Shown: positions 3,622 to 20,106 of the stretch, piece after piece
How positions within the stretch are numbered: the first letter of the stretch is position 1
Layout of the letters: the number at the start of each line of letters is the position of its first letter
NCBI RefSeq assembly: GCF_031598375.1
Contig: NZ_CP123872.1
Coordinates: 1,302,001-1,366,000 of the forward strand
DNA length: 64,000 nt
Source: Temperatibacter marinus
GTDB taxonomy: Bacteria > Pseudomonadota > Alphaproteobacteria > Sphingomonadales > Kordiimonadaceae
Reading direction: 5' to 3'
The notes under the pieces: generated by a model
What the model was told of the DNA's origin: nothing
Seen by the model: only the letters and a program-made list of their open reading frames with translations
The model's database searches: none
Position numbers and translations under genes: made by a program

Positions 3622-5604
3622 ATGGAAAAATTAGATATTTCAGAAGCGTTAGCAGGAGCTCAGCAATCCATGTTGCGCGGTCAGTTTAAAGATGCAATGG
3701 CTGCAATCAGTGATATCCTCTCCTTCAGTCAGGAGAATAGAGATGCACTTTATATGAAGGCTGTTGTGGAAAGATATAGTGGTGTTTTAAAAGATGCCGA
3801 AAGAACGCTAATACGACTTCTAACACAATCGCCTACGTTTGGTAGGGGCTATCAGGAACGGGGCTATCTCTTAAAAACAACGGGTGATCATGAAGGGGCT
3901 CAAGTCGCTTTTGAACAGGCGATTACATATAATCCAACGCTAATGGGAGCCTGGCAACAGTTGGTGACCCTTTATGTGAAACAGAAGTCGGATATTCCCT
4001 TGATGAATGCACAACACCAATTGGCAAGGCTTCAGGCGCTGCCAAAAGAGTTAACTGCAGTCAGTCATTATTTTTATGAGGACCACTTTAAAAAAGCGGA
4101 GGCATTATGCAGAGCATTTTTAAAGGTTAATCCGGCGCATTTCGAGGGCATACGTTTGCTTGCATCGATCGCCGAAAGGCTTGGCTCCTATGAAGAAGCT
4201 GAATTTTTGCTTAAGACCGCACTTACCTTAACTAATTCTAAAAGTGATATTGCCATTGATTTGTTGAAATTATACCGGAAGAGACAAAAATTTCCCGAGG
4301 CTCTTGAGGTGGCGAAGCAACTGGTCGAGCAAGATACTAGAAATCCATTGTTTCATTCTTATCATGCTGTACAGGCTCTCCAAAGTAATGACTATCAAAC
4401 GGCCTTGAAGGGGTTTGATCACGTCCTAAAGTTATTGCCGACCGATGCAGTAACACATACTTCCAAAGGGCATGCCCTCAAAACAATTGGAGATCAAAAG
4501 CAAGCCATCAAAAGTTACAAAGCGGCGCTGGCGATTACACCTTCGTATGGCGATGCTTGGTATGGCCTAGCCAATTTAAAAACTTACTGCTTTTCTATGG
4601 CAGAACTTGAAACTATGGAAAGTTTGATAGAAGCGCCTTATTCTTTGCCTCATAGAGCACAAATCCAGGTTCATTTTGCCCTAGGCAAGGCCTATGAAGA
4701 TCAAAAAGAATATGGACAATCCTTTTATCATTATCAAAAAGGCAACGGCCTTCGATATACTGAAAATCGCTATTGCCCAGATCAAATGGAAAAAGAGTTT
4801 GAGCTGCAAAAATCTATATGTACAGACGCTTTATATGGCCAGCATGTTGCAGGGACTGTGCAGGCAGAAGACCCAATTTTTATCGTGGGCCTGCCGCGCG
4901 CAGGTTCCACTCTAGTCGAGCAAATCTTGGCCTCTCATTCTTTGGTAGATGGCACGATGGAATTACCTGATATTTTGATGATTGCCCAAGAGATCCGAGG
5001 CCGACAAAGGCTAGAATCAGAGACAGGCTATCCGCTCGTCTTGCCTTCCCTTCCAAAGGAGACCTTGAACAAATACGGCGAGCAATATCTAGAAAATACT
5101 CAGCAACATAGGCAATGTGCTCCTTATTTTACGGATAAAATGCCTAATAACTTCCGTCATATTAGCTTGATAAAACTCATTTTACCAAAAGCGAAAATAA
5201 TTGATGTGCGACGCAACCCGATGGATTGTTGCTTTAGTGGCTTTAAGCAGCTTTTTGCCGAAGGCCAGGAATTCACCTATAATTTGAAAACAATTGGTCG
5301 TTATTATCGATCTTATGTGGCGCTGATGGATCATTTCGATCAGGTTTTTCCGGGGGACATTCACCGTGTACGCTATGAAGACCTTGTGGCAGATAGTGAG
5401 CAAGAAATTCGACGATTGTTAGACTACTGTGGCTTACCTTTTGAGCAAAATTGTTTGGAATTCTATAAAACCGAGCGGCCGATTAAAACGGCCAGTTCTG
5501 AGCAAGTGCGCGAGCAAATAAATCCTAAAGGTCTAGAAGCTTGGAAAACTTATGAGGACTATTTATGGCCTCTCAAGGAAGCATTAGGGACCGCAGTGGA
5601 CTAA
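3622..5604 (+). CDS. Tetratricopeptide-repeat sulfotransferase
   Basis: 660 residues. The first half (about 1-390) is made of TPR-like helical pairs, for example AVVERYSGVLKDAERTLIRL and ALAITPSYGDAWYGLANL. The second half is a sulfotransferase-fold domain. Its PAPS-binding loop, IFIVGLPRAGSTLVEQIL, lies near residues 419-436, and a second motif, VRRNPMDCCFSGFKQLF, follows. The C-terminal part has VRYEDLVADSEQEIRRLLDYC and TASSEQVREQI, typical of TPR-sulfotransferases. The acceptor is unknown. No signal peptide is visible, so it is probably cytoplasmic. GGAG lies 7 bases before the ATG. Confidence 0.9.
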   Translation: MEKLDISEALAGAQQSMLRGQFKDAMAAISDILSFSQENRDALYMKAVVERYSGVLKDAERTLIRLLTQSPTFGRGYQERGYLLKTTGDHEGAQVAFEQAITYNPTLMGAWQQLVTLYVKQKSDIPLMNAQHQLARLQALPKELTAVSHYFYEDHFKKAEALCRAFLKVNPAHFEGIRLLASIAERLGSYEEAEFLLKTALTLTNSKSDIAIDLLKLYRKRQKFPEALEVAKQLVEQDTRNPLFHSYHAVQALQSNDYQTALKGFDHVLKLLPTDAVTHTSKGHALKTIGDQKQAIKSYKAALAITPSYGDAWYGLANLKTYCFSMAELETMESLIEAPYSLPHRAQIQVHFALGKAYEDQKEYGQSFYHYQKGNGLRYTENRYCPDQMEKEFELQKSICTDALYGQHVAGTVQAEDPIFIVGLPRAGSTLVEQILASHSLVDGTMELPDILMIAQEIRGRQRLESETGYPLVLPSLPKETLNKYGEQYLENTQQHRQCAPYFTDKMPNNFRHISLIKLILPKAKIIDVRRNPMDCCFSGFKQLFAEGQEFTYNLKTIGRYYRSYVALMDHFDQVFPGDIHRVRYEDLVADSEQEIRRLLDYCGLPFEQNCLEFYKTERPIKTASSEQVREQINPKGLEAWKTYEDYLWPLKEALGTAVD

Positions 5605-6810: not shown

Positions 6811-8028
6811 TTAGAGGTATCCTGTCGATTTCAAAATCATTCGGATACCCAAACCTACCATAAGCAAGACAATGAACAGACCAATGGCATTGCTCAATTT
6901 CCCGTTGATGTGCTTCTTCAGCAAGGTCTTGTTATTCATCGCGACCAACAGAAATGCCGCAATAATCGGTAGCAGTAATCCATTGGCAAATTGTGCTGAT
7001 AGGATGATCTCTACGGGACGGATGCCCGTGAGAGCAACAGCTAGGCCTATCGCAATAACCACTAGCATGATCGCTCTGAATTTATACGACGTGATGCCGC
7101 CTTTTATGCCCGTGAGTTCAGCAAAAACATACCCTGTAGCAAGAGGTGCTGCGATTGCACTGCTGAGACCAGCTGCAAAAAAGCCGATGCCTAAAATCGC
7201 TTTTGAAAAAGAACCAAACAAAGGTTCAATTTGACGAGCCATATCTCCAGCACTGGTGACCGTCAGACCACTGCCAAAAAGACTGGCAGCTGCTGTTGAG
7301 GCCACAAGAATAGTAATCAGTCCCCCTAGTCCCACTGCGATATATGTGTCTTGCTGGGCGACAGGGAGCGCCTCTACTGTGGTCCACCGCGTTTTCGCCG
7401 CAGAAGCATGGAGGAAGAGATTATAGGGCACCACAGTCGTTCCAATGAGCGCAATAATAACAAGCAGGCTATTTTCAGCGATCGCGGGAATAACCAACCC
7501 TTTAGCAAAAGCAATCATATCTGGCCGTACGATGATAAAGGTCGAAATAAATGAAATCGCCATAAGGAGGACCAACCCAATCAAGAGCTTTTCAATCTGT
7601 TTGTAGGATCCAAGATAGAGAAGCAGGCCTGCTATGCCCGATATAGAGAGGACTGCAGCGGTGAAGACAGTATCGCCTTCTCCAAACAGGGCTTGAATAC
7701 CAATAGCGCCCCCTGCAATATTCCCAGCTTCATATGCAGCATTGCCCACGCAGAGCGCGACCAGTATAATTGCGAAAAGTGGCCATTTTAAAAGCGAGGT
7801 CTCGAATGTTTCCTTCAGCACCTCGCCCAAGCCTTTGCCAGTTACAATGCCAAGGCGAGCAGACATTTCTTGGAGCGCCATTGTCGCAAGCGTCGCAAAG
7901 ACCAAAGCCCATAGAAGGCTATAGCCAAAGGTCGCCCCGGCAATGGTACAGGTTGTTATAGTACCCGGGCCGATGAAAGCGGCTGAAACAAGAGCACCAG
8001 GCCCCATATTTTGAAGTTTACGGATCAT
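6811..8028 (-). CDS. Nramp-family transporter lacking canonical metal-site residues
   Basis: 405 residues, about 11 membrane helices, with clear Nramp/SLC11 similarity. Helix 1 carries GPGT at 20-23 where metal-transporting Nramps have DPGN. Helix 6 carries TTVVPYNLF at 197-205 where they have the A-x-x-MPHN pattern. The Asp, Asn and Met that bind Mn/Fe are therefore all missing. The ATG overlaps the stop of the upstream 5-oxoprolinase gene as ATGA, so the two are translationally coupled. In Bacillus subtilis the Nramp-like ycsG lies beside the pxpA/B/C (ycsF, kipI, kipA) 5-oxoprolinase genes. I therefore infer uptake of 5-oxoproline or a related organic acid rather than a metal. Homology is sure; substrate is not. 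Confidence 0.85.
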
Positions 8029-11000
8029 TCTTCTTCCTTTTGCTTTCCAATGGCGACTGATTTCGGACCAAAACCGCCCCCTGTGGGGGTTTGGATGATA
8101 ATCCGATCACCGGCCATCACCTGAGTTTGTCCACTTCCGCCCATATCTTCACAAGAACCATCTTGTCTTTCAACCCAATTTTTTCCAACCTGACCGTCTT
8201 CGCCTCCCTTCATGCCGAGAGGGGGTAAAAGGCGGTGTCCAGAAAGGATAGAGCATTCCATCGCCTCCCTGAACCGAATTTTTCGAGTAACCCCGTCCCC
8301 AGCAGTCCATTCCCCTTGGCCACCAGAGCCTTTATTGATTGAAAATTCATCAAGGATCACAGGATAACGCAGTTCCAAAATTTCAGGATCTGTCATTCGG
8401 GTGTTGGTCATATGGGTATGGACAGCATCTGTCCCATTAAAGGTGGGTCCAGCAGGACTACCGGAACAGATTGTTTCATAATATTGATACCGATCATTTC
8501 CAAAAGTCAGATTATTCATCGTCCCTTGACTGGACCCAAGCGCCTTCAGTGCCATAAAGAGGGCGTTCGTGACAGCTTGGCTCGTTTCCGTATTCCCAGC
8601 AACCACGGCCGCAGGGGGTGTGGGATTGAGCAAGCTGCCCTTTGGCACAGCAATTGAGATGGGAATCATACAGCCTGCATTCAACGGAATATTATCTTGG
8701 ACAAGACAGCGGAAAACATACAGAACCGCAGCGCGTGTTATGGTTTCTGGCGCATTAAAATTGTGGTTTCGTTGTTCTGACGTGCCCTTAAAGTCAAGGG
8801 CGGCAGTCTGGTCTTTTTTGTTAATATTTATGGATACTTGAATAACAGAGCCATCGTCCATTTCATAGATGCACGAACCGCTAGTCATTGTAGAAATGGC
8901 CTTGCGAACTGCGGATTCTGCATAATCCTGAATATGGCCCATATAGGCTTTGACCACAGGCAGGCTATAATGCTCTATGAGGGTTAATAATTCCTTGGCC
9001 CCTGCAGCATTGGCAGCTGTTTGAGCCATCAGATCGGCAATATTTTGGTCAATATTGCGTGCTGGATAGGGAGGCGTTGCCAGTATTTCTCTCATTTCCT
9101 CGGTGAGGAAACGGCCTTTTTTGACCATTTTAACACAGTCAAAGACAATGCCTTCTTCTGTGCTTTTTGTCGCTCTTGGGGACATGGAACCAGGAGCAAG
9201 GCCGCCGATATCTTCGTGATGTGCCCGACTGGCGACATAAAAGAGAATGGTAGTCTCAGTACTATCAAAAACGGGTGTGATGACTGTCACATCGGGCAGG
9301 TGAGAGCCCCCGTTAAAGGGGTCGTTATGCACAAAAACATCCCCCGGATTAAGAGGTTGCCCGCTATCGATTAAGACCTTGATCGTAGAATCCATGGATC
9401 CTAAGTGGACAGGTACATGCGGCGCATTTGCAATCAAATCACCGCTTGCATCAAAAAGCGCACAGGAAAAGTCAAGGCGTTCTTTTACATTCACAGACTG
9501 AGAAGTGTTCCGAAGCACAATTCCCATCTGTTCTGCGATTGACATAAAGAGGTTATTGAAAATCTCTAATGTTACGGGATCGTAATGAGTTGAAACCGCT
9601 GCGATATGCTGGCGCTTTTTCTCCCTCTTTAGGATCAAATGACCGTAGGAGTTAACGGTGGCATGCCATCCAGGCTCTATTACGAGAGTGCCCGTTGGTT
9701 CTATAATGATTGCAGGGCCAGTGAGGCTATGCCCGTATCCCAAAGTTTCTATAGAGTAGACAGGGGTATCTAACCACTGGCCGTGATGGTAGACGCGCGA
9801 GTGCTCTATAGGTTTGGGAGGATGGTTTGCTTTTTGTTGACGGACTTCTTCGCCAGAAGCTCCGCCGCCCGATCCAGCAACAATCAAAGTTTCAAGGATG
9901 ATATCTTTCTCTGGGGCAATGAATCCAAACCGTTTTTTGTGCTGAGCTTCAAAGGCTTTGCGCATGGCACCGGGAGTTGTTAAATCAACAGATATGGTGG
10001 TGTCTGTCGCTTTATATTTTAGGAGAGCTTCTGTCTGAGTTGCAATGGCATTCTCTGACAGGCCTTGATCTGTTAAATCATAGATAATTTCGGATTTTAG
10101 AGCCGTAAGTGTTGATTCTAATTCTATAAGTAAATCATCGCTTAAGACCGCTGAAATTTCTTGTTGGCGTTCCGCCTGTAAGGAAGCGAGCCCCATACCA
10201 TAAGCGGATAAGACCCCAGCATAAGGATGGATGAAAATTGTCTCAATCCCAAGTTTATCAGCGACCAAACAGGCATGTTGTCCCCCCGCGCCGCCAAAAC
10301 AATTCATAGCATAGTCTTTGACATCAAAGCCGCGGGAGATGGTGATTTTTTTGATGGCTTGTGCCATATGATCAACGGCTATATCCAAGAAACCTTCGGC
10401 GACATCTTCTGCACTGCGTCCATCGTTCATCTCTTTTGAGATTGCGTCAAAGGCAGATTGAGCGGCCAACATGTCAAGCGGCTGATCTTGATTGGGCCCG
10501 AATATAGCGGGAAAATAGCGCGGCATAATTTTACCGAGACAGACATTAATATCGGTAACCGCAAGCTTCCCTTTACGGCGGTAACACACCGGCCCCGGAT
10601 TAGCGCCTGCAGAGTGTGGCCCCACCTGGAACCGATTGTCCTGATACGTGAGCAAGGATCCCCCGCCTGCGGCGACAGTGTGGATATACATCATGGGCAC
10701 CCGCATCTGAACGCCGGCCACTTCGGTTTCGTAAGTTTTCTCGAAAGATCCAGCATAATGGAAGACGTCTGTTGACGTGCCGCCCATATCAAAACCGATG
10801 ACTTTATCAAAGCCGGCCAGTTCAGCAGTTTTCACAGCGCCGATGATCCCGCCCGCAGGGCCAGAGAGGATGGCATCGCGGCCCCGAAAACGATCAGCCG
10901 CTGTTAACCCGCCAGATGATTGCATAAAAAGAACATTCTGAGAGGGTTTTTCCTTGGCTGAGGCTGTTTTATCCAAGGCGGCAGAAATTTTATCCACATA

Positions 11001-11663
11001 CCGCCTGAGAATAGGCGTGAGATAGGCGTCGACCACCGTGGTCTGACCGCGGGCAACAATCTTAGTGAGGGGGCTTACATCCCGACTGATGGAGATCTGA
11101 GTATAGCCCACACGGCGGGCAATCGCAGCGATCGCTTGCTCGTGGGCGGGATATTTATAAGCATGCATCAAGGCCACAGCTATAGACCTATAACCTTCAC
11201 TGTATGCAGCGACAAGATCGGCATGGATGGCTTCTTCGTTGAGGGGTGTCTCTATTCTTCCCTCGCTTAATATGCGCTCTTCCACCTCGATAACTTTTTG
11301 ATACAAGAGCGCAGGCTTTTTTATCTCTAGCGCAAAAGTATCGGGGCGCGCCTGATAGCCAATATCAAGAATATCCCTGTAGCCTTTTGTGACCAGAAGA
11401 ACGACAGGGTCCCCTTTTTTCTCAAGCAATGCATTGGTGGCAACCGTCGTCCCCATTTTTACAGCGTCAATTTCTTCGCTCGGGATCGGAGCCTTAGGGT
11501 CAAGCCCAAGAAAAGAGCGAATGCCGTGCAAGGCAGCATCCTCGTAGGCTTCAGGGTTTTCAGACAAGAGTTTGCGTGTTTGAATATGACCGTCTGGTGC
11601 TTTCGCTACAATGTCTGTAAAGGTCCCGCCGCGATCAATCCAAAACTGCCATTTATTACTCAT
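8025..11663 (-). CDS. Hydantoinase/5-oxoprolinase family protein (HyuA-HyuB fusion)
   Basis: 1212 residues, the length of ATP-dependent 5-oxoprolinases of the eukaryotic (OPLAH) type. The HyuA-like half begins with [12 protein letters not shown] (GGTFTD at 12-17), an actin-fold phosphate-binding motif, and includes [12 protein letters not shown] and GGAGGQHA. The HyuB-like half begins near residue 690 with [13 protein letters not shown] and contains [13 protein letters not shown]; it ends with [10 protein letters not shown]. The likely reaction is ATP-driven opening of 5-oxo-L-proline to glutamate, but N-methylhydantoinase and acetone carboxylase relatives share this architecture. The start at 11663 has AAGGG 7 bases upstream. 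It is the first gene of a two-gene operon with the Nramp-like transporter. Confidence 0.9.
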
Positions 11664-11710
11664 TTTATACCCTTAAATCGCTAAATACTGCGATTTTTAA
11701 ATGTTTACAT

Positions 11711-11871
11711 ATTGTTAACATGCAAATTACTATGCTTGAAAAGCTCAAGCAAAACAGCGCGTTAGCCAGCCTGAGCTTACATATTGTTTACATGGGTAGC
11801 AAAATAGGGCTTTTGCGGCTAGTGAGAAATTGCAGTTTCTCTAATAGATTTCTGAATGGATTGTTAACATG
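11711..11871. repeat. Three direct repeats ATTGTTWACATG upstream of the 5-oxoprolinase operon
   Basis: Copies lie at 11711-11722 (ATTGTTAACATG), 11783-11794 (ATTGTTTACATG) and 11860-11871 (ATTGTTAACATG), about 72 and 77 bases apart. The first two share a longer core, TTACATATTGTTWACATG. Each contains the dyad TGTT(A/T)ACA, which resembles GntR- or FadR-type operators. They sit 48 to 208 bases before the 5-oxoprolinase start and just outside the recombinase-bearing insertion. Operator sites for that operon are my preferred reading. Recombinase arm-type sites are the alternative. Confidence 0.55.
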
Positions 11872-11921: not shown

Positions 11922-12506
11922 CTAAAGTAATTCAACAGCACTAGCCTTCATCTGATCTGTAACGTCGATATATCGCTGTGTCGTTGTAAGGTGCTTGTGT
12001 CCAGCGAGTTCCATGATAACTTTAGCACTTACACCCGAGTGAGCTAGCTTGGATATATAGTGACGACGCCCGCTGTGACTTGAAGCAGTGGGTACGCCAC
12101 TTGCGATATATAGTCTTTTAAACAATAAGCTGAGGCTATTTTGTGAAAATGGCTTCTGGCTCTTTTGAGATTGAATAAGGGGCTGGTTTAATACCAGATT
12201 AACCTCTTTGTCTGTTGCAAGCCATTTTATGTACCGTGTCAACTCCGCACGAAGCTTAGTTCCTATAAAAATACGGCGAGTGACATGCCCCTTCGTGTAA
12301 GCGGGGTTAATCTGCAATTGGTCTACTACAGTCCCGTCTTGATTTAACAAATCCTTCACCAGCAATTGAGAAATTTCTCCAACGCGCATACCTGACCAAT
12401 GAGATAAAAGCACTATGATACGATTTCTCTCTGCATGTCGGCCTGTTGCAATGATCTTTAATGTCCGTTTAAATTGTGTGTCTGTTAATACTGCTGCTTG
12501 CTTCAT
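11922..12506 (-). CDS. Small tyrosine recombinase (catalytic domain only)
   Basis: 194 residues. It has the tyrosine recombinase catalytic set: Arg in HWSGMRVGEI, Lys in TKGHVTRRIF, His and Arg in SSHSGRRHY, His in LAGHKHLTTTQRY and the nucleophile Tyr in that last motif. The N-terminal SAM-like core-binding domain of XerC/phage integrases is missing. An in-frame stop lies about 22 codons upstream with no other start between, so this is not a miscalled start. The size matches FimB/FimE-type invertases. It lies downstream of, and on the same strand as, the restriction and methylase genes and probably moved or rearranged this segment. Confidence 0.88.
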   Translation of the reverse strand: MKQAAVLTDTQFKRTLKIIATGRHAERNRIIVLLSHWSGMRVGEISQLLVKDLLNQDGTVVDQLQINPAYTKGHVTRRIFIGTKLRAELTRYIKWLATDKEVNLVLNQPLIQSQKSQKPFSQNSLSLLFKRLYIASGVPTASSHSGRRHYISKLAHSGVSAKVIMELAGHKHLTTTQRYIDVTDQMKASAVELL

Positions 12507-12644
12507 AATACGTACTTTCGTTAGTTTAAGTATGAAGAAAGTATATTTTATTCGAGCAGTGCTGTCGGCCTAAATCAGAACGCCAGTAAAACCAACGCTT
12601 AGAAGCATAATAGTGAGAAATGTATATTTTATGTGATTGTTATT

Positions 12645-13517
12645 TTAGTGGAGGACGCTATTTAAAAAAGAAATAGCACGATCTTTTGACCTGAAAGAGC
12701 CTTCTAGTTTGTCGCCGTTGGTATAATGAATAACAATCTGATATTTTGCGAAGGTGAGTTCTTCATTATTTGGCTCAGAATTGTAATCATAAATAAATTT
12801 TTTGGCATTTGTCATGTCAGTGAAAGAATAGTTCTCACCAAAGAGGGGGGATATAAAGATTTGTTTAATTTGTCTATCGAGTGCTTCTTTTAATTTGGAC
12901 GTGAAAGAGTTTATCTCTTTTTCATGCAGGTTTAGTAGTTCTGTTGTAACAGCATCTTTTTTGGAACTTGTTAATTTTCTAAATGCCTCCAGTTTTTTCC
13001 AGCCATCATCATCCTCAGTGTCTTCGTCAAAGTAGATGTCTACACCAAATTTTAAAAAAACTTTAACCACATTAGCATAATTAAAATAGATAATATTAAA
13101 GCCGCTTGCATTAAGTTGCTTAAGGGACGGTGCCGTAAAGTCTCCTGCTATTACTGCCCCTAAAAAGGGCTTCAGATGAGAATATTTATCAGCTATTGGT
13201 AATACAGCAGCTTGAATTTCTTGCGCTTTATTTTTTGAGTGTTTTGTATATCTTCGCCATGCAGCTTCTATTATGGCAACAGGTTGTCCCATATTAGTAT
13301 CTGAACCATTTTTTTCAATTAGGAAGTCTAAATCATGAGAGCTGCCGTAAATATCTTCCCATTTTACTTTTTTACCTTTTCTAGCAGGCCTGTCTTTACC
13401 AACAAAGTCCAAATAAAATCCATTGGTATCAGCTACACTTTGAAACACGGGAAGCATTGCTTGTTCAAGGAAAAGTCCTATTTCTTGCCCTAAAGTGTGT
13501 ATGGGAGACTTAGCCAT
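12645..13517 (-). CDS. Putative restriction endonuclease (partner of the adjacent methyltransferase)
   Basis: 290 residues. I do not recognise the exact family. A block near residues 60-110 has SSHDLDFLI followed by PVAIIEAAWRRYTKHSKNK, reminiscent of a PD-(D/E)xK nuclease core with acidic residues then a basic helix; a textbook ExK is not obvious. It starts 6 bases after the methyltransferase stop, so the pair is an operon. That context, more than the motif, supports a restriction role. The region is visibly AT-rich in codon use compared with the flanking genes, which suggests transfer. A different nuclease role, such as a defence effector, is possible. Confidence 0.6.
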   Translation of the reverse strand: MAKSPIHTLGQEIGLFLEQAMLPVFQSVADTNGFYLDFVGKDRPARKGKKVKWEDIYGSSHDLDFLIEKNGSDTNMGQPVAIIEAAWRRYTKHSKNKAQEIQAAVLPIADKYSHLKPFLGAVIAGDFTAPSLKQLNASGFNIIYFNYANVVKVFLKFGVDIYFDEDTEDDDGWKKLEAFRKLTSSKKDAVTTELLNLHEKEINSFTSKLKEALDRQIKQIFISPLFGENYSFTDMTNAKKFIYDYNSEPNNEELTFAKYQIVIHYTNGDKLEGSFRSKDRAISFLNSVLH

Positions 13518-13523
13518 ATTATA

Positions 13524-14780
13524 TTATCCCTCTACCCAAAGTCGTCCTTCATGCAGTGGGACTGTATGGGTTCTATTTTTCCACTTAACATTTCTATCAC
13601 GTAATTTTTCAAAAGAAAACCCTTTGAAACCATGATGTAATGCTATTTGAGCAAGCCATTTTTCTGCAGGAACATGAATGCCATATGGTGCGGAATCTCC
13701 TATTACAAAACATACCTTTGCACCATCAACAGTAGCATTTCTTATGTTTAGCCAGATTTTTGATAAGTCGTAAAAGTATGCTGCGATCATTGTATGGTAC
13801 GCTTTTTTTCCGCCTTTAGTATGACGAATTTCATCAAGAGCTTTAGTAACTTTAAAAATATCATCTTTAATTGGTTCAAGTTCAGCAGAAGATAGTAATT
13901 CATCTAAAATCACCTTGTCTCCAGCAGAGTGTTGGGAGCATGAGCGCATTATAGATGGGCGGACGGCTGTTTTTAAATCACCCCATCCATCTATTTCTCC
14001 CCAAAATGTCATTTCTAATCTTGTAGCATCGGCATAATCAAAATTATTGGGATATGGAGGAGATGTAATCACTAAATTACATTTGTTTGCATGAATAGAT
14101 TGTCTAACATCAAGTTCTTCAATTTTACAGTTTGGTTTCCACCCTATGTGCTGGACATGGTTCATGTCTTCACTCATCAATAGCGCTTTTGCCCAAAAAC
14201 CATCAAAAGGGTCTATTACTTTTGACTTAGATTTATTGGGTAAAACATATTGCCATTGAGCTGTTCCTGCATGACTACAGGCGCGAATTATGGATGTTAT
14301 ATTGAGCCATACTAACCTCCAAACAGCATCATTTGTACATAGATCTTCATATGCTTTTTTTAGATAATCTAGTTTTTGTAGCGCACCTGGTGAATAACAC
14401 TTTCCAAGTAATTGGTTGGTTTCATGTCGGGTTGTATTAAATGAGTATGTTTCGGCTAAAGATAGGATACTTTGACAATGTGATAGAAAATCTTCTGCTG
14501 GTAAATGCCAACACGATTTGGCTTTTGCTACACGAGTAACGAAAGGGTGTCCGTCAAAACCAAAAGATTTCACGCCTAACGTATCAGCAGCAAAGCAAGT
14601 TGTGCCAGAACCTAAAAAGGGGTCCAAAAGAATTGCATCATTACCCGTATCGGATTGATATTTTATAATTTCTTGTTCTACCCATTCAGCAGAAAATCCC
14701 GCCGAATACCTAAACCATCTATGGATCGGTAGCTTCATGTTGTCTGTAAATGTACCAGACCTTTTAATTTTTGTGCTCAT
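13524..14780 (-). CDS. DNA methyltransferase (N4-cytosine/N6-adenine type)
   Basis: 418 residues. SAM-binding motif I is DPFLGSGTT at 53-61 and the catalytic motif IV is TSPPY at 239-243, followed by PNNFDYADATRLEM. The SPPY form is commonest in N4-cytosine enzymes, but N6-adenine cannot be excluded. Motif I precedes motif IV with a long segment of about 180 residues between, which probably holds the target-recognition part (an alpha-type order). It is upstream of, and close to, the putative endonuclease gene, as expected for a type II restriction-modification system. Codon use is AT-rich. Confidence 0.9.
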   Translation of the reverse strand: MSTKIKRSGTFTDNMKLPIHRWFRYSAGFSAEWVEQEIIKYQSDTGNDAILLDPFLGSGTTCFAADTLGVKSFGFDGHPFVTRVAKAKSCWHLPAEDFLSHCQSILSLAETYSFNTTRHETNQLLGKCYSPGALQKLDYLKKAYEDLCTNDAVWRLVWLNITSIIRACSHAGTAQWQYVLPNKSKSKVIDPFDGFWAKALLMSEDMNHVQHIGWKPNCKIEELDVRQSIHANKCNLVITSPPYPNNFDYADATRLEMTFWGEIDGWGDLKTAVRPSIMRSCSQHSAGDKVILDELLSSAELEPIKDDIFKVTKALDEIRHTKGGKKAYHTMIAAYFYDLSKIWLNIRNATVDGAKVCFVIGDSAPYGIHVPAEKWLAQIALHHGFKGFSFEKLRDRNVKWKNRTHTVPLHEGRLWVEG

Positions 14781-17928: not shown

Positions 17929-20106
17929 TTAGACAGCACCCTCTAGACCCCGTGCAGTATGTAATTTTTTATAACTGTCTATTAACCTGAGATGCTTGTC
18001 TAGTCCTTCAAGCTTCATGCTTGTTTTTGTAAGGCCATAAAATCTCACATCGCCCGTAACTGAACCAATAACATTTTCCATGATTGCGGCACCGTACATG
18101 CGGCCTAGGTTGTGTTTATAATCATCAAGCTCTAGGTCGTTGTCTAAGGTAATATCGAGTACAGCATTTAAGGCGCGGTAAAATAAAACCCGGTCGACGG
18201 TATTTTCATTGAAGGTTAAGAAATCTGTGACAATTTCCAGGGCCTCTTCATAGTTTTTTAAGGCACAGTGAATGAGGATTTTCAATTCACCAATATCAAG
18301 CTTGCCCCATACTGTATTTTCATCAAATGCAATGCCGATTAACTCAGCGATCACTGTATAATTATCTAGCTCTTCTTCTTCTAAGCGTTCCAGCAAGGCT
18401 TCTAACGCATCATCAGATAAGGAATGGATGTTGAGAATATCTTCTCTAAAGAGCAGCGCTTTATTAGTGTTATCCCAAATGAGATCTTCTATGGGATATA
18501 CTTCTGAATAGTCGGGCACTAAGATACGGCATGCAGCAGCACCGAAGTTTTCATGCGCGGCCACATATACCTCTTTCCCAAGTTCGGTGAGGATCGTCAT
18601 CAAGCGATCATTCTCTTCTTCTGTTGTGCCGCTAAAGTCCCATTCGCAGAATTCATAATCCTGTTTTGCACTAAAGAACCGCCATGAAATAACTCCTGTA
18701 GAATCGATAAAATGTTCTACAAAGTTATTTGGTTCTGCCACTGCCTGACTGTTGAAGGTTGGTGGCGGGACATCATTAAGCCCTTCAAAGCTGCGGCCTT
18801 GGAGTAATTCAGTGAGGGAGCGTTCCAGGGCCACTTCTAGACTTGGATGGGCTCCAAAAGAGGCAAAAACACCGCCGGTCTTCGGGTTCATCAAGGTCAC
18901 ACACATCACGGGGAACTTACCTCCTAGGGAGGCATCCTTGATCAAAACAGGGAAGCCTTTGTTTTCAAGTTCTTCAATGCCAGCCTGAATTGAAGGGTAT
19001 TTTTTTAAGATATCTGCTGGGACATCAGGCAGAATAATTTCTTCTTCAATGATTTGACGTTTCACTGCACGCTCAAATATCTCTGAGAGGCATTGGACCT
19101 TTGCCTCATTCAAATTATTGCCAGCACTCATACCGTTGCTGAGAAATAAATTTTCGATTAAATTTGAGGGGATATAGACGGTCTCTTGATCTGAAGAGCG
19201 GGTGAAGGGTAGGGCACAAATTCCGCGGTCAGCGCGGCCTGAATTTGTATCGATTAAATGAGAGGCCCTTAAGTCACCATCAGGATTATAGAGCTGCAAG
19301 CATCTTTCATCCATCAGCCCTTCGGGCAAAGCATCCTCGGGGCCTGCTTGGAACCATTTTTCATTGGGATAATGAACAAAGGCGCTGTTCGCAATTTCTT
19401 CGCCAAAAAAATAATCATTATAAAAGAAGTTACAGCTCATACGCTCAATATATTCGCCTAAAGCAGAACATAATGCGCTTTCTTTTGTTGCGCCTTTGCC
19501 ATTGGTGAAACACATAGGAGAAGCAGCTTCGCGGATATGCAGTGACCAGACATTGGGAACAATATTACGCCAAGAAGCCACTTCAATTTTAATACCAAGA
19601 TCTGTTAGGATCGCCGTCATGTTAGAAATGGTTTGCTCTAATGGCAAATCTTTACCGACAATCATAGTAGTGCCGTCGCTCGCATAGTCTTCTAGCAGCG
19701 ATGCATCCTCTAAATTATCAACGGGATCAATTTTAAAATCAGGGGTTTGTTGAATAACTTTTTTTACAGTGCAGCGATCAGCAGAACGGATAATGCCTTC
19801 CCTGTCTTTCTCAGAAATACTTTCAGGTAATTCGATTTGAATTTGAAAAGTTTGATTGTAGCGGTTTTCTGGATCGATAATGTTATTTTGAGAGACGCGG
19901 ATATCATCAGTTGGAATATCGCGAGCAAGACAATAAACTTTGACAAAATAAGCGGCACACAGCGCTGACGAGGCAAGAAAGTAATCGAAAGGACTAGGGG
20001 CGGTTCCATCTCCTTTGTACCGTATGGGTTGATCAGTGATAACAGTGAAATCATCAAACTTGGCCTCAAGTCGTAGATTATCTAAAAAATTTACAGTGAT
20101 TTCCAT
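17929..20106 (-). CDS. ycaO: OsmC/YcaO domain protein (ribosomal S12 methylthiolation accessory)
   Basis: 725 residues. An N-terminal OsmC-like domain (1-150) has both family cysteines, C50 in ASSALCAAY and C112 in ADRCTVKK. A YcaO domain follows, with GKGATKESALCSALGEYIERMS at 203-224 (the ATP/Mg-binding helix with ExxER). The rest is a helical C-terminal extension. YcaO enzymes activate amide backbones with ATP. E. coli YcaO is reported to aid RimO-dependent methylthiolation of ribosomal protein S12, and I assign the same role by family. The gene is divergent from a RoxA-like hydroxylase gene, giving two ribosome-modification genes on one intergenic region. Confidence 0.85.
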   Translation of the reverse strand: MEITVNFLDNLRLEAKFDDFTVITDQPIRYKGDGTAPSPFDYFLASSALCAAYFVKVYCLARDIPTDDIRVSQNNIIDPENRYNQTFQIQIELPESISEKDREGIIRSADRCTVKKVIQQTPDFKIDPVDNLEDASLLEDYASDGTTMIVGKDLPLEQTISNMTAILTDLGIKIEVASWRNIVPNVWSLHIREAASPMCFTNGKGATKESALCSALGEYIERMSCNFFYNDYFFGEEIANSAFVHYPNEKWFQAGPEDALPEGLMDERCLQLYNPDGDLRASHLIDTNSGRADRGICALPFTRSSDQETVYIPSNLIENLFLSNGMSAGNNLNEAKVQCLSEIFERAVKRQIIEEEIILPDVPADILKKYPSIQAGIEELENKGFPVLIKDASLGGKFPVMCVTLMNPKTGGVFASFGAHPSLEVALERSLTELLQGRSFEGLNDVPPPTFNSQAVAEPNNFVEHFIDSTGVISWRFFSAKQDYEFCEWDFSGTTEEENDRLMTILTELGKEVYVAAHENFGAAACRILVPDYSEVYPIEDLIWDNTNKALLFREDILNIHSLSDDALEALLERLEEEELDNYTVIAELIGIAFDENTVWGKLDIGELKILIHCALKNYEEALEIVTDFLTFNENTVDRVLFYRALNAVLDITLDNDLELDDYKHNLGRMYGAAIMENVIGSVTGDVRFYGLTKTSMKLEGLDKHLRLIDSYKKLHTARGLEGAV

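Follow-up and report, generated by a model that had tools for sequence, protein, structure and literature searches.

The window analysed here is a stretch of 64,000 nucleotides from Temperatibacter marinus (contig NZ_CP123872.1, positions 1,302,001 to 1,366,000), whose minus strand, as its open reading frames are read, carries a gene for a fused HyuA-HyuB enzyme followed by a gene for an Nramp-fold protein (Table 1). This protein belongs to a clade of Nramp-related transporters with GPGT in place of the metal-binding DPGN motif of helix 1, and 100 of the 131 clade members counted have a 5-oxoprolinase-type enzyme, pxpABC or HyuA-HyuB, as a neighbour. As judged from sequence and gene neighbourhood, the transporter is proposed, with a probability of about 70%, to import 5-oxoproline (pyroglutamate) and to feed HyuA-HyuB. 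The GPGT clade is thereby a second, apparently uncharacterised, Nramp-related clade tied to 5-oxoproline, besides the YcsG/PxpT lineage.

A GPGT clade linked to two 5-oxoprolinase-type enzymes

The clade was sampled in six frames, which gave 131 counted members and 67 other Nramp-type proteins. The class frame searched the whole Pfam family in 241 genomes and counted 56 Nramp-type places, while the phylum frame set one alignment (A1) against 397 genomes, of which 23 matched, three with proteins from outside the clade. A second alignment (A2) found at least 592 relatives in genomes of named species, and the best 80 of the 592 loci were used, being picked by clade peptide patterns and not by their neighbours. 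The plasmid frame comprised 35 records, of which 13 were viewed, while for the clostridial frame the phylum to which a Tepidanaerobacteraceae genome belongs was searched (15 of 249 genomes matched) and for the actinobacterial frame that of a Streptomyces (14 of 246). Members of one genus were counted separately, flank length varied, from about 4.5 kb for plasmid records to as much as 8–9 kb for the others, and an interrupted gene on a short contig (L247) was left out of the counts.

Against a single profile, clade members score at least 339 bits (339.3) and other Nramp-type proteins at most 232 (231.7), and the clade boundary was set by us at 330 bits within this gap. The clade members compared share at least 39% identity with the window transporter. 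The clade separates from the canonical and most other Nramp-related groups in quick trees, which contain several long branches and are supported only by the Shimodaira-Hasegawa-like approximate likelihood ratio test; in one tree the outgroup row L112, which has GPGS, stands beside L233 on a long branch.

The earlier note on this DNA, made from its letters alone, had proposed that the neighbours of GPGT-type proteins be tabulated and that two non-homologous 5-oxoprolinases are tied to one transporter clade, and the counts bear out this linkage. The 100 linked members comprise 70 with pxpABC and 30 with HyuA-HyuB (14 fused and 16 split, including L115, whose record stops inside HyuA), compared with only 1 of the 67 other Nramp-type proteins, namely L242 (3835–5127), which shares its HyuA-HyuB locus with a clade member. 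The enzyme lies no more than 50 bp away on the same strand in 87 of the 100. For a pxpABC call, a single one of the three genes within the flank sufficed; among the 70 such cases the enzyme is on the opposite strand in seven and more than 300 bp away in seven. The detector queries were the window HyuA/HyuB and one alphaproteobacterial pxpABC set, which remote copies may escape. In the whole-family sample of 241 genomes all three clade members, the window included, are linked (3/3), versus none of the 53 others. The linked fraction is 3/3 in the class frame, 64/80 in named genomes, 11/13 in plasmids, 6/7 in the clostridial phylum and 9/11 in the actinobacterial phylum, with the remaining phylum frame taken up below. 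In the haloarchaeal plasmid records HyuA directly follows the transporter in 11 of 12, with HyuB next in 10, the Halobellus record ending within HyuA.

The two enzyme types exchange on the transporter tree. Scored on the 100 linked rows only, at least six changes between pxpABC and HyuA-HyuB are required, and six are also obtained with starred branches only. Within family f127, one genus (L046, L095) carries pxpABC and another (L096, L097) HyuA-HyuB; in a starred set of seven rows, whose named members are Bacteroidia, five have pxpABC and two HyuA-HyuB; an actinobacterial set of seven contains five HyuA-HyuB, one pxpABC and one unlinked row; and the haloarchaeal HyuA-HyuB rows cluster with two rows from the clostridial phylum that have pxpABC. 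The window subclade (17 rows) has seven HyuA-HyuB, ten unlinked and no pxpABC rows, and the enzyme is upstream of the transporter in six of its cases. Outside it, 7 fused, 16 split and 61 pxpABC cases have the enzyme downstream and 2 pxpABC cases have it upstream, while eight linked cases, one of them (L132) inside the window subclade, have opposite strands. Because gene order differs between lineages, the transporter-enzyme pair was probably assembled more than once.

At the window junction, AAAGGAAGAAGAATGATCC, the transporter ATG (8028–8026) and the enzyme TGA (8027–8025) share ATGA, as read directly from the sequence in agreement with the earlier note, and AGGA lies 6 nt before the ATG. 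Overlaps of 4 bp recur in L052, L056, L129 and L131.

Transporter, enzyme and proposed pathway

The window transporter matches PF01566 (Nramp) in Pfam with an E value of 6.1e-85 and 285.8 bits against a cut-off of 29.8. Its helix 1 reads AFIGPGTIT and, in a phmmer comparison with the Nramp of Deinococcus radiodurans (DraNramp), IGPGT aligns over MDPGN and GTTVVPYN over GATVMPHV. In one alignment of the 131 clade members with 20 DPGN Nramps, the helix-1 ligand positions are changed from Asp to Gly in 130/130 (one gap) and from Asn to Thr in 129/130. Helix 6 has Ala to Thr in 130/131 (T197), Met to Val in 131/131 (V200) and His to Tyr in 131/131 (Y202), and helix 3 has Glu to Asn in 131/131 (N103, equivalent to E134 of DraNramp), with Y99 in 117/131. 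Residue 349 is changed from Leu to Asn in 130/131. The helix-6 proline is missing in 14 of the 131 (12 Gly, 1 Thr and 1 Leu), haloarchaeal and actinobacterial members included, with Y-N retained. The phmmer comparison and the 131-member alignment thus confirm that GPGT stands for DPGN and TTVVPYN for A-x-x-MPHN, and that the Asp, Asn and Met ligands are gone, as first noticed from the letters. The window transporter has the predicted fold of canonical SLC11/MntH proteins and none of the hallmarks DPGN in helix 1, A-x-x-MPH in helix 6 and the helix-3 Glu. As far as sequences can tell, the metal site is replaced and not decayed, and the same alternative residues being fixed across bacteria and haloarchaea suggests selection for another pocket.

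The AlphaFold model of the transporter has a mean predicted local distance difference test score of 89.9, with helix 1 broken at residues 19–20 and helix 6 at 199–200. Its best structural matches in Foldseek and VIA-align are solved Nramps and EleNRMT: the predicted model aligns best in VIA-align with D. radiodurans Nramp 6d91 (Z 48.6, 389 residues aligned, 2.7 Å) and has in Foldseek a template modelling score of 0.85 to EleNRMT. The next-ranked LeuT-fold matches are amino-acid transporters, such as a bacterial asc transporter, ApcT and AdiC. By analogy with the family, the fixed replacement residues are expected to face one pocket.

The window enzyme contains the Pfam domains PF05378 (Hydant_A_N), PF01968 (Hydantoinase_A), PF19278 (Hydant_A_C) and PF02538 (Hydantoinase_B), and reaches no NCBIfam cut-off. 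The fused arrangement is typical of oxoprolinases (PMC8453981; papers given by PMC number are cited here from excerpts). Like OPLAH and OXP1, it has the HyuA-HyuB architecture of eukaryotic oxoprolinases, with about 1250 residues (PMC8453981), a likeness of architecture and motifs in which the eukaryotic enzymes are compared by description. Patterns modelled on motifs in PMC8453981 locate the ATP-site motifs D-x-GGT-x-TD at residue 10, D-x-GGT at 292 and GxxPGP at 353, and the metal-site motifs ERLDFS at 728, SHLPD at 787 and RAHHED at 813, the latter matching Asp41-His99-Asp102-His124 of CapB as judged by spacing, not alignment. The ATP motifs are present in 30/30 linked HyuA. The full metal-site pattern occurs in 12 of 29 linked HyuB, while 17 lack one of the three parts as written, 15 of these being split forms without the ERxDFS part. 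HyuA-HyuB of the window is therewith a putative 5-oxoprolinase. The HyuB tree (34 rows) gives no picture of a single dedicated clade of linked enzymes: linked split forms (archaeal and actinobacterial) stand apart from linked fused forms, the linked forms have three unlinked fused ones in their midst, and very long branches lead to two unlinked split copies.

Six haloarchaeal plasmid operons (L116, L261–L264 and L267) have the order Nramp-HyuA-HyuB followed by an aspartate/glutamate racemase-family gene, and a CopG-family gene precedes in 5 of the 6.

The two window genes probably form one translationally coupled operon, read as a single transcript, for the uptake and use of 5-oxoproline. Within the Nramp/LeuT fold, the transporter would have a pocket lined, in place of the metal ligands, by fixed small or polar residues, namely G-P-G-T in the unwound helix 1, T-x-x-V-x-Y-N in helix 6, N103 in helix 3 and N349 in a predicted helix (residues 338–364). 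The carboxylate and the lactam of 5-oxoproline are proposed to be bound by the exposed GPG-turn backbone together with the polar side chains, in a manner comparable to amino-acid transporters of the amino acid-polyamine-organocation (APC) superfamily, where a glycine-rich turn of helix 1 binds the carboxylate. Once imported, 5-oxoproline would be opened to glutamate by HyuA-HyuB at the expense of ATP.

Related Nramp groups and competing explanations

PxpT of Corynebacterium glutamicum and YcsG of Bacillus subtilis are, like the window transporter, Nramp-related and encoded with a 5-oxoprolinase-type enzyme, theirs being pxpABC. Growth of C. glutamicum on 5-oxoproline requires pxpT, metal transport not being excluded by the authors, and PxpT is 50% identical to YcsG (PMC13274462). 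The earlier note had placed YcsG in the same transporter clade. This membership was rejected, as the YcsG chain of an integrative model (9a52_A) shares 20–21% identity with the window model in a structural alignment, compared with at least 39% among the clade members compared; the comparison is one of models, with YcsG and PxpT sequences outside the tree, and a literature search found no paper on the YcsG-FabL structure entry. YcsG, and hence PxpT given its identity to YcsG, thus appears on the models to lie outside the GPGT clade in another Nramp-related lineage, so the argument for 5-oxoproline rests on the GPGT members that carry pxpABC. It is supported by the distant PxpT, which has the same genomic habit and is needed for growth on this compound.

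Four Nramp-related proteins found beside pxpA in the clostridial phylum have GPGF in helix 1 and GG(T/S)VGGY in helix 6, share 26–28% identity with the window transporter and stand on a long branch. They are probably of the YcsG/PxpG type, as gene position and identity suggest, and no HyuA-HyuB was seen beside them (n = 4 proteins only). With residues of the GPGF proteins read by eye, they agree with the GPGT clade in the GPG of helix 1, the helix-3 Asn, the helix-6 Tyr and the Asn near 349. By description, the substitutions of the Slc11 'orphan' outgroup of PF01566 (Val and Tyr in helix 6, Tyr and Asn four apart in helix 3, and Ala to Thr) match V200, Y202, Y99, N103 and T197 of the clade; this group serves as an outgroup in PMC10606218, the excerpt giving it neither function nor gene neighbours. 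Nramp-related groups are described as paraphyletic, outside or at the base of canonical Nramps, with MntG in 'G-motif 3' and the groups other than G-motif 3 and NRMT-like entirely uncharacterised (PMC12873925). The 'G-motif' groups resemble the clade, by description, in lacking both the metal motif and the proton pathway. EleNRMT, which moves Mg with non-canonical residues (PMC12873925), has the same fold as the window transporter, whereas its motifs are NDAGG and GTTIAPWMMF and those of the clade GPGT and GTT(V/I)VPYN; the window transporter thus lacks the NRMT motif, EleNRMT alone being compared. A literature search found no paper joining hydantoinase with NRAMP, and the wider literature may hold some.

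Locus L237 of the clostridial phylum has an Nramp-related gene of the GTTITPW type (476–1816) and a DPGN Nramp gene (3727–4956), divergent and about 1.9 kb apart.

Several observations weigh against import of 5-oxoproline. Neither enzyme is in the flank of 31 of the 131 clade members, 4 of which have less than 4 kb on one side, linkage in the phylum frame is just 7/17, and a starred set of nine rows, comprising eight f158 genomes and the plasmid L119, is unlinked. Only 9 of 60 short-flank PxpA loci (best matches in two phyla) have an Nramp, 5 GPGT and 4 GPGF, and none was found beside 20 further actinobacterial PxpA loci drawn outside the four genomes with a linked member. Over-expression of YcsG raised cellular Mn, and it was claimed as an Mn(II) importer and renamed MntG (PMC10448178), with the earlier 5-oxoproline result viewed as possibly polar. 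The Nramp-family protein MumT, whose gene shares an operon with mumLUHC, facilitates the accumulation of Mn (PMC5050338). A metal site is essential in HyuB-family enzymes, and PxpA is probably metal-dependent (PMC8453981), so that metal is itself a possible link, and the racemase-family gene in 6 of the 11 linked haloarchaeal records fits hydantoin use too. As most pxpA loci looked at have no Nramp, the GPGT transporter would be one of several routes to 5-oxoproline; a TRAP (tripartite ATP-independent periplasmic) system is also mentioned alongside 5-oxoproline use (PMC13274462).

Among 19 genomes with an unlinked member that were searched, 15 have PxpA elsewhere and the other 4 Hydantoinase_B, including the L163 genome, where HyuA and HyuB are split and distant. 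In the background, PxpA occurs in 70/199 genomes, Hydantoinase_B in 85/199 and either in 130/199. This genome-level co-occurrence is consistent with the 5-oxoproline proposal but weak as evidence, as one or the other enzyme is present in 125 of 194 background genomes (naive chance 3.7e-4 for 18 genomes, 19 having been tested, with kinship ignored).

The eight f158 loci (L102–L109), gammaproteobacterial-type and with no adjoining 5-oxoprolinase, include six that form a tight subclade, and a gene that is PatB/MalY-like by the look of its translation adjoins the clade member in 3 of the 5 f158 loci listed.

The transporter may instead import another cyclic amide or acid, such as a hydantoin, a carboxy-lactam or D-5-oxoproline, the ring of which is opened by HyuA-HyuB, with the pxpABC-linked members sharing the same or a related substrate. 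The racemase-family gene after HyuB and the failure of the window enzyme to reach any NCBIfam cut-off fit this explanation, as does the diversity of HyuA-HyuB enzymes, which include hydantoinase, caprolactamase and carboxylases (PMC8453981). It is nevertheless unlikely, as the 70 members near pxpABC point to its known substrate, 5-oxoproline (PMC13274462), and the two enzyme types swap on the transporter tree.

Transport of a divalent metal through a remodelled site, supplying PxpA and HyuB, is quite unlikely, as the Asp, Asn and Met ligands are Gly, Thr and Val, His is Tyr and Glu is Asn in all or all but one aligned member, and overlapping pairs with one catabolic enzyme would be unneeded for general metal supply. 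The Mn claims for YcsG/MntG and MumT speak for metal, as do the Mg carriage by EleNRMT, the essential metal site of CapB and the Mn bound by XaAc (PMC8453981), with the corresponding motifs present in the window HyuA-HyuB. It is very improbable that the linkage arose incidentally as catabolic cassettes spread by horizontal transfer and that the transporter carries an amino acid or other nutrient with no relation to the enzyme, as the gene order varies by lineage, with the pair probably assembled more than once, and the 4-bp overlaps recur, even though Hydantoinase_B genes, fused-length frames included, are common in the phylum sample (85/199), the clade itself is rare, with 23 matches in 397 genomes of which 3 belong to another group, many pxpA loci have no Nramp and 31 clade members are unlinked.

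Import of 5-oxoproline would give a testable function to a clade of at least 592 relatives. If it is true, metal annotations would be corrected in many genomes ('Nramp family divalent metal transporter' stands on 13/13 plasmid records viewed), the adjoining HyuA-HyuB would be marked as a bacterial or archaeal OPLAH-type 5-oxoprolinase, and the clade would offer an independent way into the YcsG dispute (5-oxoproline versus Mn) and bear on the origin of the Nramp metal site. A tentative and rather doubtful extension is that both lineages, GPGT and YcsG/PxpT, carry 5-oxoproline and that organic-acid transport is older, Nramp metal transport being a later invention, because Nramp-related groups lie outside canonical Nramps (PMC12873925); metal transport would then have arisen by placing Asp, Asn, Met and Glu into that pocket.

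The Temperatibacter genome and the surroundings of the locus

In the Temperatibacter genome, a single contig of 3.18 Mb, the window transporter is the only Nramp above the Pfam cut-off, the second match reaching only 20 bits. The genome has no PxpA (PF03746) match, hence the window transporter is not encoded with pxpABC, and two Hydantoinase_B genes, one of them the window enzyme. The repeat region upstream of HyuA-HyuB spans 170 bp, and the 12-mer has no exact copy elsewhere in the window. These operator-like repeats are absent from the 300 bp upstream of 15 related loci, the window being the only one among 16 to have them, and are given no weight as evidence for this reason.

Table 1. Positions of the features discussed, in window coordinates unless a locus is named
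Feature	Position	Strand	Details and basis
Nramp-related transporter of the GPGT clade, proposed 5-oxoproline importer	6811..8028	-	405 aa; PF01566, model, clade, neighbours
Fused HyuA-HyuB of OPLAH-type architecture, putative ATP-dependent 5-oxoprolinase	8025..11663	-	1212 aa; Pfam domains and motifs
ATGA overlap of enzyme stop and transporter start, with probable translational coupling	8025..8028	-	Sequence
Helix 1 segment IGPGTI, residues 19–24 (canonical Nramps: MDPGNW)	7957..7974	-	Alignment
Helix 6 segment GTTVVPYN, residues 196–203 (canonical Nramps: GATVMPHN)	7420..7443	-	Alignment
Repeats, possible operator: CATGTWAACAAT, three exact copies (11711–11871), and one TGTAAACA	11702..11871	-	Upstream of enzyme gene
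GPGF Nramp-related proteins	L301 210–1433; L302 2285–3508; L314 91–1308; L316 2277–3494		Beside pxpA

Near the operon, a short tyrosine recombinase (194 aa) is encoded within 11922–14780 (minus strand), beside a probable type II restriction enzyme (12645–13517) and a methyltransferase (13524–14780) on the same strand, and the three look like a small restriction-modification island adjoining the operon. Further along, 17929–20106 (minus strand) encodes a protein of 725 aa which, by the look of its translation, is OsmC-like and YcaO-like.

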